A stretch of 64,000 bases of DNA from Winogradskyella echinorum. Its GTDB lineage: Bacteria > Bacteroidota > Bacteroidia > Flavobacteriales > Flavobacteriaceae. A program made the position numbers and the translations under genes. Shown piece after piece: positions 20,770 through 28,479 of this stretch (its first letter is position 1; every line of letters starts with the position of its first letter). The stretch spans positions 372,001 through 436,000 of the forward strand of contig NZ_JACOQD010000001.1 in the NCBI RefSeq assembly GCF_014297365.1, in the 5' to 3' direction. The notes beneath the pieces were generated by a model. That model saw only the letters and a list, made by a program, of their open reading frames with translations. It was not told where the DNA came from and did not search any database.

Positions 20770-20819
20770 AATGTAAGTTTCACGTCGGTCGTTACGGCTT
20801 AAAACGTATAGCTTACATT
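20770..20819. other. Structured non-coding stretch before kynU
   Basis: Outer arms AATGTAAG and CTTACATT (8 bp) enclose a GC-richer core with CGTTACGGCTTAAAACG. It is followed by a small CGCC-TTTT-GGCG hairpin at 20823-20834. It fits no gene. It could be a dispersed repeat or a small structured RNA. Confidence 0.3.
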
Positions 20820-20850
20820 TTCCGCCTTTTGGCGCCTATATATATTCTCT

Positions 20851-20878
20851 AGCGCTTTGTTTTCAAAGCGCTTTTTTT
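20851..20878 (+). terminator. Terminator upstream of the kynurenine cluster
   Basis: A 9-bp perfect stem (AGCGCTTTG / CAAAGCGCT) with a 4-nt loop and a T run. It isolates the kyn cluster from the preceding lipoprotein gene. Confidence 0.85.
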
Positions 20879-20893
20879 GTGCTTATAAATCCT

Positions 20894-20901
20894 TATTTTT
20901 G
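20894..20901 (+). promoter_or_regulatory. Predicted -7 promoter element of kynU
   Basis: TATTTTTG matches TAnnTTTG and lies 25 nt before the TTG start of kynU, just after the terminator. It probably drives the kyn cluster. Confidence 0.5.
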
Positions 20902-20926
20902 TTAGCAACCGATAAATCAATTCACT

Positions 20927-22195
20927 TTGTCCGACTACAAACTTGGTCTAGATTACGCCAAACAACAAGACGCTTTAGACGAACTATCTAGCTACAGACA
21001 GCAATTTCATATTCCAAAAGATAAAAACGGAAATGAATTAATTTACCTCTGTGGCAACTCACTAGGCTTACAACCAAAATCTACAAAGGATTACATTAAT
21101 CAAGAATTAGAAGATTGGGCAAATCTTGGTGTAGAAGGTCATACCGAAGCTAAAAACCCTTGGTTACCGTATCATGAGTTTTTAACGGAAGCTACGGCTA
21201 AATTAGTTGGAGCAAAACCTATTGAAGTCGTAACTATGAATTCGCTTACTGCGAATCTTCATTTTATGATGGTTTCGTTCTACAAACCAACAAAAGAACG
21301 ATATAAAATAGTTATAGAAAGTGATGCATTTCCATCAGACAAATATGCTGTAGAATCGCAATTGCGACATCATGGTTATGATGATAAAGAAGGTCTTATT
21401 CTTTGGAAACCTAGAGATGGTGAAGAATTATTACGATATGAAGACCTAGAAGCTATTTTAGAAGCTCATGGTAATGAAATTGCATTGGTAATGATTGGTG
21501 GTGTGAATTACTACACTGGGCAGTTTTTCGATTTTAAACGCATTACAGAACTTGGTCATAGCTATGGTTGCAAAGTCGGATTTGATTGTGCTCATGGTGC
21601 TGGAAATGTGAATTTAGATTTACACAACTCAGGAGCAGATTTTGCAGTTTGGTGTACTTATAAATATCTCAACTCAGGACCTGGAAGTCTTTCTGGTTGC
21701 TTTGTTCACGAGCGTCATGCTTACGATAAAAACTTAAATCGTTTTACAGGTTGGTGGAGTCACAATAAGCAAACACGTTTTAACATGCGACACGAGTTTG
21801 ACGTGTTGCCTGGAGCTGAAGGTTGGCAACTCAGCAATCCACCAATATTATCTATGGCAGCAATTAAAGCCTCTTTAGATATGTTTAATGATGTCGGAAT
21901 TAAGAAACTCACAGAAAAGTCTAAAAAACTTACTGGCTATTTCGAGTTCTTACTAAAGCAACTAGGCGAAGATACTATTAGAATCATTACACCAGAAAAC
22001 CCTGATGAACGTGGTTGCCAACTATCGATTCAAGTATTGAACGCAGATAAAAAATTACACGATAAACTAACCGAAGCCGGAGTTATAAGTGACTGGAGAG
22101 AACCAGATGTAATTAGATGTGCACCTGTACCATTGTATAATTCTTTTGAGGATGTTTATAGAATGGTTGAAAAAATGAAGGCTATATTAAATTAA
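20927..22195 (+). CDS. kynU: Kynureninase
   Basis: PLP enzyme that cleaves (3-hydroxy)kynurenine to (3-hydroxy)anthranilate and alanine. 422 residues, usual for bacterial KynU. The Schiff-base lysine is K246 in CTYKYLNSGPG, and YLCGNSLGLQP and GFDCAHGAGN are family motifs. The start is TTG, 25 nt after a promoter motif, with no better ATG ahead of the conserved DYAKQQDALD region. First gene of the kynurenine cluster. A palindromic repeat begins 2 nt after its stop. Confidence 0.97.
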   Translation: MSDYKLGLDYAKQQDALDELSSYRQQFHIPKDKNGNELIYLCGNSLGLQPKSTKDYINQELEDWANLGVEGHTEAKNPWLPYHEFLTEATAKLVGAKPIEVVTMNSLTANLHFMMVSFYKPTKERYKIVIESDAFPSDKYAVESQLRHHGYDDKEGLILWKPRDGEELLRYEDLEAILEAHGNEIALVMIGGVNYYTGQFFDFKRITELGHSYGCKVGFDCAHGAGNVNLDLHNSGADFAVWCTYKYLNSGPGSLSGCFVHERHAYDKNLNRFTGWWSHNKQTRFNMRHEFDVLPGAEGWQLSNPPILSMAAIKASLDMFNDVGIKKLTEKSKKLTGYFEFLLKQLGEDTIRIITPENPDERGCQLSIQVLNADKKLHDKLTEAGVISDWREPDVIRCAPVPLYNSFEDVYRMVEKMKAILN

Positions 22196-22196
22196 A

Positions 22197-22226
22197 GCCC
22201 ATCCTAACCTTCCCTGAGGGAAGGAT
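22197..22226. repeat. REP-like element, family A, copy 1 (kynU-kmo gap)
   Basis: GCCCATCCTAA followed by the palindrome CCTTCCCTGAGGGAAGG (22208-22224, 8-bp arms). Nearly identical to copy 3 at 23698-23727. Confidence 0.7.
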
Positions 22227-22246
22227 CTAATGCTTAATAAAAAAGA

Positions 22247-23710
22247 ATGAATACTAATATAAATACACGCAACAGTGAGAAAGTCTTCCCTTCTGGGGAA
22301 GATTTAGAAGGGGCTGCACAAAACATATTAATCATAGGTGCAGGTCTTTGCGGCAGCTTGCTTGCGCTTAGATTAGGACAAAGGGGCTACAACGTAACCG
22401 TTTACGAAATGCGTCCAGATTTACGTAAAACAGATATTTCTGCAGGTCGTTCTATCAATCTAGCCTTTTCAGATCGTGGTAACAAAGCCATGAAACTAGT
22501 TGGTATTGAAGACAAAGTAAAAGACTTATGTATTCCTATGAATGGTCGTATGATTCACGACAAAGAAGGCAATACCTTTTTATCTAATTATAGTGGTCGC
22601 GATTATGAATATATTAATTCTATATCGCGTGGTGATTTAAATGCTCTGCTCTTGGATGAAGCAGAAAAGCACGAAAACGTCACCATCCATTTCAATAAAA
22701 AATGTAAATCTGTTGATTTTGAAAACACCACGGCTTTATTTCAAGATTACCACACCAAAAATGAATTTATAGAAGATGCCGATTGTATTATTGCTACAGA
22801 TGGCGCAGGTTCAGCTTTGCGCAAAAGTTACTATTTAGGTAAAAAGTTTTTATTCAGTTTTTCACAAGACTATTTAACTCATGGTTACAAAGAGCTGAGT
22901 ATTCTGCCAACTGAAAATGGTGGTTACAAAACCTATAAAAATGCACTTCATATTTGGCCAAGAGGTGATTTTATGGTCATTGCATTACCAAACTTAGACG
23001 GTAGTTTTACAGTGACATTGTTCTTAAGTTACGATGAAGGTGAGTACAATTTCAACAATTTAACCACACCAGAAATTGTAACAGAATTTTTTCAAAAAGA
23101 ATTTCCTGATGCTTTGGAATTGATGCCAAATCTAATTGAAGACTTTTTTGAGAACCCAACAGCACCTTTAGGCACTGTAAAATGTTCGCCTTGGCATTAT
23201 AAAGGTAATACTTTGTTAATGGGTGATTCTGCTCATGCTATTGTTCCATTTTACGGACAAGGTATGAATGCTTCTTTTGAAGATGTTGTAGAATTTGATA
23301 AAGTCTTAAACCAAAATTTAGATAATTGGGAAGCGACTTTCGAAACCTATGAAAAAAACAGAAAGAAAGATACAGATGCCATTGCCGATTTAGCCATTGA
23401 TAATTTTCATGAAATGAAAGACCACGTAGGTCAGGCGATTTTCCAAGAAAAACGAAAAATTGAAATGATGCTCGAAAAAGAATTTCCAGAGGATTATTCT
23501 TCAAAATATAGTTTAGTTACCTTTAATGAAGATATTGGTTACAGAGAAGCGATGTTAAAAGGAAGAGCGCAAGACAAAGCAATTTTAAATATGTTAGCTG
23601 ATGGAATTATTTCAATATCAGATGACCCTAAAGATATTTTAGATAAAGTAAAAACTGAAACTGAAGCAATTTTGGAAGATGATAGAGTGGCAAAATTCGG
23701 CCCATCCTAA
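22247..23710 (+). CDS. kmo: Kynurenine 3-monooxygenase
   Basis: FAD-dependent hydroxylase converting kynurenine to 3-hydroxykynurenine with NADPH and O2. 487 residues. The FAD Rossmann motif ILIIGAGLCGSLLA starts at about residue 27, and family motifs SAGRSINLAFSDRG, ISRGDLN and LLMGDSAHAIVPFYGQGMNASFEDV (split here by a gap-free but conserved FAD region) are seen. The N-terminal 25 residues precede the usual start and are partly encoded by a palindromic REP-like repeat. No other ATG, GTG or TTG precedes the Rossmann motif, so the leader is probably real. The last three codons and the stop (GPS-stop) lie within another copy of the same repeat. Second step of the pathway, though placed after kynU. 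Confidence 0.96.
   Translation: MNTNINTRNSEKVFPSGEDLEGAAQNILIIGAGLCGSLLALRLGQRGYNVTVYEMRPDLRKTDISAGRSINLAFSDRGNKAMKLVGIEDKVKDLCIPMNGRMIHDKEGNTFLSNYSGRDYEYINSISRGDLNALLLDEAEKHENVTIHFNKKCKSVDFENTTALFQDYHTKNEFIEDADCIIATDGAGSALRKSYYLGKKFLFSFSQDYLTHGYKELSILPTENGGYKTYKNALHIWPRGDFMVIALPNLDGSFTVTLFLSYDEGEYNFNNLTTPEIVTEFFQKEFPDALELMPNLIEDFFENPTAPLGTVKCSPWHYKGNTLLMGDSAHAIVPFYGQGMNASFEDVVEFDKVLNQNLDNWEATFETYEKNRKKDTDAIADLAIDNFHEMKDHVGQAIFQEKRKIEMMLEKEFPEDYSSKYSLVTFNEDIGYREAMLKGRAQDKAILNMLADGIISISDDPKDILDKVKTETEAILEDDRVAKFGPS
22284..22315. repeat. REP-like element, family A, copy 2, inside kmo 5' end
   Basis: Inverted relative to copies 1 and 3: TCTTCCC (22284-22290), loop TTCTG, GGGAAGA (22296-22302), then TTTAGAAGGGGC. 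Its reverse complement aligns with GCCCATCCTAACCTTCCC of the other copies. It encodes roughly VFPSGEDLEGA of the KMO leader. Confidence 0.6.
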
Positions 23711-23727
23711 CCTTCCCAGAGGGAAGG
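23698..23727. repeat. REP-like element, family A, copy 3, spanning the kmo stop
   Basis: GGCCCATCCTAA is the end of kmo (Gly-Pro-Ser-stop), followed by the palindrome CCTTCCCAGAGGGAAGG (23711-23727). It matches copy 1 except in the palindrome centre. Confidence 0.65.
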
Positions 23728-23784
23728 AACTGGTACGTGCTTAAATAGGAAAATCAATTAGATTTATAACTAACAAATAAAAAA

Positions 23785-23960
23785 TTCATGCCCCAAATCA
23801 ATTGGTAGAATTGAACATCAAAATTCAGAAATAGTGAGCGAAGGAATGTAGATGCGAAGCGCAGCTTCAAGCACGGAATTCCGAAAGTGAATGTTCCGAA
23901 GGAATTTCCTATATTTTGATTGTGATTTTTGGTTCGTTTGCATCAAGGCAAATGAACAAT
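23785..23960. repeat. Candidate dispersed intergenic repeat
   Basis: A non-coding stretch of about 175 nt between kmo and the deaminase gene. It contains several short palindromes (GAAGCGCAGCTTC, CGGAATTCCG) and a tail resembling TTTGGTTCGTTTGCATCAAGGC. From memory, similar stretches recur in flavobacterial genomes, but I cannot search here. No ORF with family features is present. Confidence 0.4.
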
Positions 23961-23983
23961 AAATAAAATAACAACAAAATAAG

Positions 23984-24004
23984 ATTCTGAAACAAGTTCA
24001 GAAT
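23984..24004. repeat. REP-like hairpin upstream of the aminomuconate deaminase gene
   Basis: Arms ATTCTGAA / TTCAGAAT with a 5-nt loop, followed by GACA. This is the general form of the -AATGACA REP family also seen at 27855-27927. It lies 10 nt before the ATG of the next gene. Confidence 0.55.
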
Positions 24005-24013
24005 GACAAGAAT

Positions 24014-24448
24014 ATGAAGGAAAAAGACAATAAGGTTCCTGCTTCCGCAGGAACAGGCGTAGCACCAAGAGGAGCATACCCACACGTAAAACAAGTAGGC
24101 GATTTCATTTTCGTTTCTGGAACAAGTTCTCGCAGAGCAGACAACACCATTGCCGGAGTGGATATTATTGACGAAATGGGAACTAAAAAGTTAAACGCTT
24201 ATACCCAAACCCAAGAAGTACTAAAAAACATTGATAAGAACCTTCAAAAAGTTGGAGCAAGCTTAAAAGATGTCGTTGATGTCACCTCTTTTTTAGTAAA
24301 CATGAATGACTTTGCTGATTACAACAAGGCTTACGCTGAGTTTTTTGACAAAGAAACAGGACCAACCCGAACAACAGTAGCTGTGCATCAGTTGCCCCAT
24401 CCAGATTTAGTGGTTGAGATAAAGGTTATGGCATATAAACCAAAATAA
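24014..24448 (+). CDS. RidA-family 2-aminomuconate deaminase
   Basis: 144 residues of the YjgF/YER057c/UK114 fold with [15 protein letters not shown] near the substrate pocket and the C-terminal strand [12 protein letters not shown]. The context of HAO, ACMSD and AMSDH, and resemblance to known aminomuconate deaminases ([19 protein letters not shown]), indicate hydrolysis of 2-aminomuconate to 4-oxalocrotonate plus ammonia. Residues 1 to about 16 are a leader whose codons contain a perfect 8-bp-arm palindrome (24035-24054), so part of the N-terminus derives from a repeat. No alternative start lies before the conserved domain. A generic RidA imine deaminase is the alternative. Confidence 0.85.
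24035..24054. repeat. REP-like palindrome within the deaminase coding sequence
   Basis: GTTCCTGC (24035-24042), loop TTCC, GCAGGAAC (24047-24054). Same CCTGCnTTCGCAGG design as the inverted repeats at 27855-27927. Encodes VPASAGT of the leader. Confidence 0.6.
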
Positions 24449-27061: not shown

Positions 27062-27844
27062 ATGAATCTAGAATTAAACAACAAATACGCATTAGTTTGT
27101 GGTAGCACGGCTGGAATAGGAAAAGCAACAGCTTTAGCATTAGCAGAAGAAGGTGCCATAGTTACTTTAGTTGCAAGAAATGAAGAGAAGTTAAAAGCAG
27201 TACTTGCTGAATTACCTCAGCATCGTAACCATGATTATATTGTTGCAGATTTTTCTAATCCAACAGAATTACAAGCAAAAGTTGAAACTTACATTAAAGA
27301 AAATCATGGCTTTCATGTATTAGTCAATAACACAGGCGGACCAGCTGGTGGACCAGTTTTTTCTGCAAAAATTGAAGAATTTGAGAATGCATTTACACAA
27401 CATTTAAAATGTAATCATATATTGGTACAAGCTTTGGTTCCGTTTATGAAAGACCAAAATTATGGGCGAATTATAAATGTAATTTCTACATCTGTAAAAC
27501 AACCGCTAGACGGTTTAGGAGTTAGTAATACTATTCGTGGTGCAGTAGCTAATTGGAGTAAAACTTTGGCAAACGAATTAGGGCAATATGGTATTACAGT
27601 AAACAACGTTTTGCCAGGAGCCACAGGTACAGAACGCTTAAGTGAAATTATTAAAAATAAATCTGCGAAAACAGGTAAAACTGTAGAAGAGGCTGCAGAT
27701 GCTATGAAAAATGCAGTGCCAGCTAAACGTTTTGCTAAACCCGAAGAATTGGCGGATGCTATTACATTTTTAGCTAGTGAACGTGCCAGTTATATTAACG
27801 GAATTAATCTTCCTGTTGATGGAGGAAGAACAAAATCTTTGTAA
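27062..27844 (+). CDS. Atypical SDR-family protein
   Basis: 260 residues with a Rossmann fold and the dinucleotide motif GSTAGIG (14-20), followed by the NNTGG segment. At the catalytic YxxxK position it reads S-N-T-I-R (S155, R159), so the catalytic Tyr and Lys are both missing, though a Ser near 142-144 remains. This resembles the BKR-like SDR subgroup known to lack the usual tetrad. Location between the AMSDH and HAO genes suggests a role in the kynurenine route, perhaps acting on an oxalocrotonate-type intermediate, or a non-redox one. The reaction is unknown. Confidence 0.88.
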   Translation: MNLELNNKYALVCGSTAGIGKATALALAEEGAIVTLVARNEEKLKAVLAELPQHRNHDYIVADFSNPTELQAKVETYIKENHGFHVLVNNTGGPAGGPVFSAKIEEFENAFTQHLKCNHILVQALVPFMKDQNYGRIINVISTSVKQPLDGLGVSNTIRGAVANWSKTLANELGQYGITVNNVLPGATGTERLSEIIKNKSAKTGKTVEEAADAMKNAVPAKRFAKPEELADAITFLASERASYINGINLPVDGGRTKSL

Positions 27845-27854
27845 CTTTATGACT

Positions 27855-27927
27855 TGTCATTCCTGCGAAGGCAGGAATCCACAATAAATTAATGATAACA
27901 TAGATTCCTGCCTTCGCAGGAATGACA
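27855..27927. repeat. 25-bp perfect inverted repeat pair (REP-like, family B)
   Basis: Arm 27855-27879 and its exact reverse complement 27903-27927 are separated by 23 nt. Each arm is itself partly palindromic (CCTGCGAAGGCAGG / CCTGCCTTCGCAGG). It lies between the SDR and HAO genes and could fold as one long hairpin on the transcript, a possible attenuator or mRNA stabiliser. Confidence 0.85.
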
Positions 27928-27942
27928 AAAAATAACATAACC

Positions 27943-28479
27943 ATGAGCAAACTATTTCCACCTATAAATTTCAAAGAATGGATAGAAGAAAACCGTCATT
28001 TATTAAAACCACCTGTTGGTAATAAAGTCGTTTGGAAAGATGGAGATTTCATAGTTATGGTTGTTGGTGGACCAAATAGCAGAAAAGATTACCACTATAA
28101 CGAAACACCAGAATTTTTCTATCAAATAGAAGGCGATATAGTCCTAAAAGTTATTGATAAAGGGACACCAAAAGATATTCATATAAAAGAAGGAGACATT
28201 TTTCTACTACCACCTAAAGTTCCACATTCCCCACAACGAGGGGCAAACACGGTTGGTTTAGTTATAGAGTATCCCAGAGAAAAAGGTGTAAAAGATGCCT
28301 TACTTTGGTTCTGTGAAAATTGTACTACTAAATTGTATGAAGAAGATTTTACGCTAGACAATATAGAAACAGATATGCCTGTCATTTTTGATAAATATTA
28401 TGGGGATAAGGAAAAACGAAGCTGTCCTAATTGTGGAGCGGTAATGCAACCACCAAAGAAAGTACAAATTGATGAGTAA
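27943..28479 (+). CDS. 3-Hydroxyanthranilate 3,4-dioxygenase
   Basis: Ring-cleaving Fe(II) cupin that makes 2-amino-3-carboxymuconate semialdehyde. With the start at 27943 the protein has 178 residues, and the iron ligands fall at H51, E57 and H95, exactly the positions known in the Cupriavidus enzyme. The rubredoxin-like iron site of bacterial HAO is C124, C127, C161 and C164. An in-frame ATG at 27922 lies in the arm of the upstream repeat and is unlikely to be the true start. Overlaps the ACMSD gene by 8 nt. Confidence 0.96.
   Translation: MSKLFPPINFKEWIEENRHLLKPPVGNKVVWKDGDFIVMVVGGPNSRKDYHYNETPEFFYQIEGDIVLKVIDKGTPKDIHIKEGDIFLLPPKVPHSPQRGANTVGLVIEYPREKGVKDALLWFCENCTTKLYEEDFTLDNIETDMPVIFDKYYGDKEKRSCPNCGAVMQPPKKVQIDE

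Follow-up and report, generated by a model that had tools for sequence, protein, structure and literature searches.

Several kinds of small palindromic repeat are known to contribute to bacterial proteins or to form paired structures. The Rickettsia palindromic elements (RPEs) are described, in the passages of a survey on which we draw (PMC3733652), as palindromes that lie in frame in genes for functional proteins, both at the termini and inside. Passages of the same survey (Di Nocera 2013, PMC3733652) treat the GTAG- and CGTC-tagged REPs, some of which lie inside open reading frames and many at their ends, where GTAG termini often give the stop codon; CGTC repeats are reported there from five phyla including Bacteroidetes. 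REPINs are outlined, in part of the account of Bertels and Rainey (2011, PMC3116915), as inverted doublets of REPs with a short spacer and a predicted hairpin. Excerpts of two further sources present small mobile repeats that give in-frame protein parts, namely the enterobacterial RU elements (PMC2759123) and the QMITEs of Coxiella, the latter at the 3' end of genes that are functional (PMC5896051). A search of the open-access literature on palindromic repeats in Bacteroidetes and in proteins returned no title on the family described here.

The present locus belongs to a Winogradskyella genome (Flavobacteriaceae) of 3.78 Mb and lies in a region of the window (the whole stretch of DNA that was analysed, 64,000 nucleotides long, in which coordinates are given below) that contains kynU, kmo and ridA. 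Its features are as follows.

20927..22195, plus strand: kynU (kynureninase), open reading frame; TIGR01814 at 452 bits against a cut-off of 246; ends just 5' of copy 1.
22193..22241, plus strand: copy 1, left arm of a REPIN-like pair in the kynU-kmo gap; covariance model, 57.7 bits, E 6e-11.
22193..22318, unstranded: copies 1 and 2 as a REPIN-like inverted pair; inward orientation, RNA fold; the kmo start codon lies inside the spacer.
22247..23710 with the stop included, plus strand: kmo (kynurenine 3-monooxygenase), 487 amino acids, open reading frame; FAD_binding_3.
22271..22315 (model match 22268-22318), minus strand: copy 2, right arm, kmo codons 9-23 (NSEKVFPSGEDLEGA); 40.4 bits, E 4e-7.
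23696..23744, plus strand: copy 3, single element at the kmo 3' end; covariance model, 57.1 bits, E 9e-11.
24014..24448, plus strand: ridA (Rid-family deaminase), open reading frame; TIGR00004 at E 3e-20 and 72.7 bits, below the curated cut-off of 106.

The start codon of kynU is uncertain, the open reading frame list giving a TTG. A fourth, partial model match at 22208-22224 (E 0.78) is copy 1 seen on the opposite strand. Within the 80 best named loci, the KMOs from Winogradskyella share 85-91% identity with the KMO protein of the window, and ten solved kynurenine 3-monooxygenase sequences match this protein, the best at E 4e-95. As these matches start only at residue 13-25, most of the N-terminal leader of KMO is without a counterpart in the ten solved sequences. 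The original prediction had placed three copies of one palindrome family beside and within kmo, and the covariance model finds all three where they were claimed to be. The inverted copy 2 does encode part of the leader: on the kmo strand it reads AAC AGT GAG AAA GTC TTC CCT TCT GGG GAA GAT TTA GAA GGG GCT, giving residues 9-23 of the protein (N S E K V F P S G E D L E G A). Copy 3, as was also claimed, supplies the end of the gene (GGC CCA TCC TAA), namely most of the codon for Gly485 followed by Pro486, Ser487 and the TAA stop at 23708-23710. The statement that no alternative start precedes the FAD motif is equally borne out, as codons 2-37 contain no ATG, GTG, TTG or CTG and the motif, GAGLCG, begins at residue 31. 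Overall, the earlier reading of the repeats as captured protein ends is supported.

The core palindrome of the family, CTTCCC-N(2-8)-GGGAAG, occurs at 12 sites in the genome and its reversed control pattern at none. The covariance model, fuller than this pattern and built from 14 sequences that include the three window copies, has 20 matches in the same genome (E up to 0.05). The repeat is thus present elsewhere, and one ground for refuting the earlier reading falls away. Element matches number from 0 to 40 per genome in 41 genomes, counted with stricter filters than were used in the scan of 92 loci described below. The consensus, AAGCCCATCCTAACCTTCCCAGAGGGAAGGAACT followed by a looser tail, carries neither a GTAG nor a CGTC tag. 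Some other palindromes in the surveyed loci begin with TGTCA and resemble the CGTC kind by look. The stem of the element has seven pairs, three of which show changes on both sides, and 98% of its cells are paired. Its covariation score is 0.328 against 0.175, with none of 500 shuffles as high and the same result for cells paired; two of the five pairing measures do not rise above the shuffles (both-side-changed pairs, 118 of 500 as high; pair types, 500 of 500). A search of Rfam gave no match at the element in 20800-24400 and one sub-threshold match elsewhere, and a known RNA family was rejected as its identity.

The scan yielded 150 model matches in 92 loci of eight genomes, a non-random sample consisting mostly of the best matches listed from seven relatives together with 12 of the genome's own loci. 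Among all 150 matches, 42 of the 43 neighbouring pairs within 220 bp point inwards and one is '++'. Copies 1 and 2 are separated by 27 nt between matches, which is the commonest spacing (five of 41 pairs), and the RNA fold of this one doublet, a single predicted hairpin, has an energy of -35.9 kcal/mol (z -3.4), equalled by none of 200 shuffles. This pair has the organisation of a REPIN, and copy 3 is a separate single element. The earlier description of copy 1 as lying in the kynU-kmo gap stands with its model match, but the treatment of copies 1 and 2 as separate does not, since they are the two arms of one inverted pair. The Y1 transposase profile (PF01797) has no match in the host genome; it has matches in 26 of 60 genomes of the genus, in 16 of these only at E above 1e-8, and near 12 Y1-transposase loci of the genus there is one weak element match (E 0.08). 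A RAYT in the host genome was on these grounds rejected as the mover. Another family seems to be represented in the window, at 27836-27946, by a complete REPIN-like unit in which two TCATTCCTGCGAAGGCAGGAATC elements are inverted relative to each other with 23 nt between them. The stretch at 23790-23960, 3' of kmo (AATTGAACATCAAAATTCAGAAATAGTGAGCGAAGG...), is perhaps another interspersed repeat; by eye, it is like stretches before kmo in G057, G032, G052, G005, G019 and others.

Comparison with relatives ties the leader to the repeat. In eight of the 56 parsed KMOs of the genus, the nearest ATG lies 25-28 codons before the ILIIGAG strand, and all eight have the palindrome there; in the other 48 the ATG is 6-8 codons before this strand in 47 and 13 in one. 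The proposal that the leader varies with the repeat thus agrees with all eight long-start proteins. The statement that ordinary KMOs lack the leader holds for the 48, but some relatives have it, together with the repeat. Over 101 distinct KMO cores from the genus and from named genomes, 34 of 135 having been collapsed as identical to another, 14 carry the leader, including L151 (Hyunsoonleella), L096 (a Lacinutrix MAG) and L162. Among named species, W. jejuensis, W. ouciana and W. vidalii have KMOs with the leader and W. wandonensis has one without. The leader lies in frame immediately ahead of Gln-Asn-Ile, which is Gln-Asp-Ile in G050, with 0, 3 or 6 nucleotides added; all 14 leaders keep an open frame, those of G011 and L162 included, although their palindromes have decayed. 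G017 (L064) and L130 were left unparsed by the FAD-motif pattern, and G056, in which kmo is split over two contigs, was left out. On the tree of all cores the leader is scattered, its label needing 13 changes against a shuffled mean of 13.4, with at least 7 forced. On the Winogradskyella subset tree, whose rows are the G genomes and L085 without other named genomes, it is found in nine of 51 rows and needs eight changes (8.5 when shuffled, with no fewer than 6 forced). This subset tree, the comparison of leader with gene divergence and the core-window comparison exclude six divergent KMOs (63-64% identical).

The 3' end of kmo follows the repeat in a similar pattern, as had been suggested, but more weakly. 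The Gly-Pro-Ser-stop ending comes from the element in G000, and by eye a copy or remnant starts just past the ordinary kmo stop in G055, G003, G031, G057, G034 and G029. The KMO of G011 ends Ile-Pro-Ser-stop (CCATCCTAA); because no clear palindrome follows, derivation of this end from the element is only probable. An AlphaFold model of KMO, made with 37 sequences, has a pLDDT of 59 with residues 1-22 below 50; the leader is not confidently folded in it, and the model is too poor to say more. Codon selection in the leader is weak, with pN/pS at 0.59 against 0.71 and 0.82 in the other frames over 45 nt only, an underpowered comparison, so that sequence alone is no proof that the leader is translated.

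The junction into which the pair falls is tight in many relatives that have no leader. The two genes overlap by 4, 8 or 11 nt in 26 of the 87 distinct no-leader loci, 83 of which were measured. By eye, the left arm follows kynU in G000, ends it in G050 (SPS-stop) and extends it in G031, L085, L103 and L114 (KPILTFP...); no left arm was seen by eye at the kynU end in G040, L096 and L162. In many other genomes a different palindrome occupies the kynU-kmo gap, for example inverted pairs of the CTCGAGCGCAGTCGAG or TTCCTGCGAAGGCAGGAA type.

The element is not confined to kmo. The survey of reading frames, like the comparison of arm distances below, rests on 144 of the 150 matches, six weak ones having been left out, and 24 of the 144 lie inside open frames of at least 150 amino acids with at least 10 residues on each side. 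The element is found in open frames of genes for Pfam-matched proteins, ten of which have family-level Pfam assignments. It forms an apparent N-terminal extension in a HemW-like radical SAM enzyme, HisH, an amidohydrolase, MurC, MurD and PaaD, and an inner segment in E1, E2, IcmF, IleRS and an alpha-2-macroglobulin-like protein. The names IcmF, HemW, HisH, IleRS and murG are those that we presume from motifs, IcmF and murG standing outside the Pfam-matched ten. Translation could also begin internally in the leaders of HemW, HisH, MurC and the amidohydrolase, all of which have TTG codons, and in several further frames an ATG directly follows the arm, which need not then be included. The inner segments of E1, E2, IcmF and IleRS would have to be translated if the domains that follow are to be produced. 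Away from kmo the left arm gives tails of the form xPS-stop or PILTFPKGRN-stop, and the right arm gives N-terminal extensions. In L009 a copy at 1484-1533 ends exactly at an apparent start (KFLPSGKTEDG before MKQYHD); the gene that follows is presumably that of thymidylate synthase.

Several of these sites could be followed across species. Among 57 genomes that matched MurC, 30 loci were read and 11 have the leader (ten by script and G056 by eye). These leaders differ by 0.16 and the genes by 0.21, with a correlation of 0.40, which suggests, less clearly than at kmo, that they are younger than their genes. On the MurC tree they cluster, needing five changes against 8.6 when shuffled, with four of 500 shuffles as low (G056 counted as without leader). 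The reading of IcmF, E1 and E2 covered the best 30 among 57-59 genomes with a match; in most of these the pattern used missed or misread the E2 linker. At the E1 loop (loci L225-L254) and the E2 linker (loci L195-L224) other palindromes replace one another at the same site across Winogradskyella species. Two loops of IcmF (loci L165-L194) carry peptides from different palindromes, the second holding further ones, one of them in the host genome. Solved structures match E1 (E up to 1e-30) only behind residue 354 and do not cover the insert. The N-terminus of ridA is built in a comparable way, its part KVPASAGTG (24014-24060) coming from a CCTGCTTCCGCAGG palindrome of the CCTGC...GCAGG kind with its core at 24038-24051. 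RidA leaders of this look are scattered over 26 of 95 distinct N-termini, and in 19 of these the CCTG...CAGG palindrome is clear in the DNA. A GATTCTGAAACAAGTTCAGAATGACA palindrome directly precedes the ridA start, at 23984-24011; a nearly identical sequence is read as EILKQVQND in the host IcmF frame.

We consider it probable that a small non-autonomous REPIN-like element inserted at the kynU-kmo junction and that one arm became fused to KMO as its leader. That the palindromes are chance, or an artefact of assembly or annotation, might be entertained for elements so short, but the 12 core sites against none for the control, the three window matches at E 4e-7 or better and the same leader in several other assemblies leave this with practically no probability, and chance was rejected. 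It is also very improbable that the leader is an untranslated 5' hairpin and that KMO starts after the arm at a non-canonical codon such as ATA. The 48 leaderless proteins of the genus, which start near the FAD strand, would fit this reading, as would the caution, in part of a survey, that REPs in the 5' ends of open reading frames may be untranslated (PMC3733652); against it, no ATG, GTG, TTG or CTG is available before codon 38, the frame has stayed open in every leader including those with decayed palindromes, and the same arms are found within the frames of E1, E2, IcmF and IleRS. We infer that the KMO leader is translated. The age of the insertion is a further question. A single old insertion, inherited vertically within Winogradskyella with many losses and no recurrent gain, would accord with the finding that all nine Winogradskyella kmo right arms form one subtype: each has its closest counterpart in another kmo arm, at 1-4 edits, and sampled elements elsewhere come no closer than 7 edits. 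Same-genome elements were sampled for four of the nine leader genomes, and in these the nearest is 8-12 edits from the kmo arm; simple insertion from the resident pool, independently in each genome, was accordingly rejected as a full account. The kmo-arm motif GGGGAAGATTTAGANGGGGCT (up to two mismatches) was found once, at kmo, in each of the eight leader genomes searched, and in three others of 60 as one match each with two mismatches; the reversed control also matches, because the motif is nearly a mirror image. One subtype, with its motif almost confined to kmo, makes a single origin of the arm sequence at this locus likely, and the clustering of the MurC leaders on their own tree is in keeping with the reading of one old insertion. 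The divergence of the leaders is difficult to reconcile with great age, however. The 45 nt of the nine Winogradskyella leaders differ by 0.10 on average against 0.196 for the genes, without correlation (r about 0), and fourfold sites of the leader-carrying kmo genes differ at 2628 of 4674 (0.56). Third positions differ by 0.139 in the leader and by at least 0.217 in every 15-codon window of the core, and one core window in 445 has a nucleotide difference as low as that of the leader, although at the amino-acid level the leader (0.181) diverges more than the core does on average (0.124). On these figures the leaders seem to be younger than the genes to which they are fused, their divergence being lower and uncorrelated with that of the gene, and to be unprotected by selection on the protein sequence, the amino-acid difference being above the core mean. 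In the close relatives G034 and G011 the leader difference (0.089) is greater than that of the gene (0.059). With the sister comparison given below, these values make a single old insertion unlikely in our view.

The alternative that leaders were spread by ordinary recombination at kynU-kmo, with flank mismatches corrected to the recipient or with a very short tract, would account for one kmo-specific subtype in scattered species and for leaders that look younger than their genes. The evidence from sister species is divided. G050, with the leader, and G021, with no leader and an overlapping junction, are sisters (support 100/100), and over the 30 nt directly after the leader they agree at 29, compared with 0.70-0.80 for four other leader genomes; this counts against both recombination and a single old insertion. 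At nucleotides 31-60, identity to G050 is 0.77 for G021 and 0.80 for G029. Over 84 nt at its kynU end, G050 is at least as close to G000 (0.75) as to its sister (0.73), which recombination would allow. Over the first 30 nt in the other three pairs, the sister scores 0.83 against 0.93 for G055 and 0.90 for G034 (G031/G048), 0.87 against 0.87 for G000 (G029/G039) and 0.83 against 0.87 for G034 (G040/G016), so that a short donor flank is compatible with three of the four. The first 30 nt favour the sister in G050/G021 alone, and this one leader/no-leader pair of the four points to precise insertion. Against recombination, leader genomes resemble one another beside the leader no more than they resemble other genomes over the first eight codons (0.816 leader to leader, 0.819 leader to other) and hardly more over the first 30 (0.803 and 0.791), and the kept kynU ends and gap lengths vary among them. 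Transfer with long kmo flanks was rejected, flank identity not being raised between leader genomes and G050 agreeing with G021 as described; recombination of the restricted kind remains a reasonable candidate that falls short of being probable. The right arms of L096 and L103 lie 11 edits from the kmo arms of Winogradskyella but 8 and 6 edits, respectively, from elements elsewhere, a pattern that points to insertion having occurred separately at this codon in other genera. We infer that the kmo leader was gained more than once, fairly recently, in different species. A more specific version of REPIN-like insertion is that a right arm particular to kmo, with perhaps another particular to murC, recently reached one and the same codon of its gene in several species, as a locus-specific mobile part that brought along hardly any flank or none, and that REPIN-like elements keep supplying ends and loops to core enzymes in Flavobacteriaceae. 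We offer this tentatively, as possible but somewhat doubtful.

On the proposed explanation, a REPIN-like element, its two inverted arms each about 45 nt long and parted by a short spacer, would have inserted at the tightly packed kynU-kmo junction and would have separated the two genes. The left arm would end the upstream gene, because one of its frames has a TAA and another is soon closed. The right arm would be open in the frame used, so that a start codon in the spacer could serve the downstream gene. Insertions would survive where an arm reads through without a stop in a tolerant place (N-terminus, C-terminus, loop or linker); inside genes, those that are stop-free, in frame and in such places would alone persist. 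If tolerated insertions survive in this way, the KMO leader is probably a passenger that is now needed for initiation, and not a functional domain. For annotation, this suggests that such leaders are probably real if the gene offers no alternative start codon, and that closely packed junctions such as kynU-kmo and the one before murC attract palindromic leaders.

Comparison with the described systems separates what is familiar from what is not. That palindromes decorate proteins is already known from the Rickettsia RPEs and from REPs. By description, the host element is like the RPEs in also lying in frame in genes for Pfam-matched proteins; it differs in belonging to a free-living member of the Bacteroidota, in forming inward pairs and in being present or absent at the same codon between species. 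Its inverted doublets with short spacer and predicted hairpin resemble REPINs, but the host genome is without a RAYT (Y1) match and some of its arms lie in coding frames. From the tagged REPs it is distinguished by a consensus without either tag. The RU elements and QMITEs are set apart by description, having other hosts and, in the portions of those sources on which we draw, no account of a paired leader and tail arrangement. The palindrome family, the host group, the arrangement in which a left arm ends one gene and a right arm starts the next, and the presence or absence at the same codon between species are new here, as far as the open-access literature searched shows. The comparison thus carries the entry of mobile palindromes into coding sequence to free-living bacteria and to core metabolic and cell-wall enzymes, with sister species to compare, and it makes the origin of new protein ends directly testable, as dozens of relatives provide the same enzyme, some with the insert and others lacking it.
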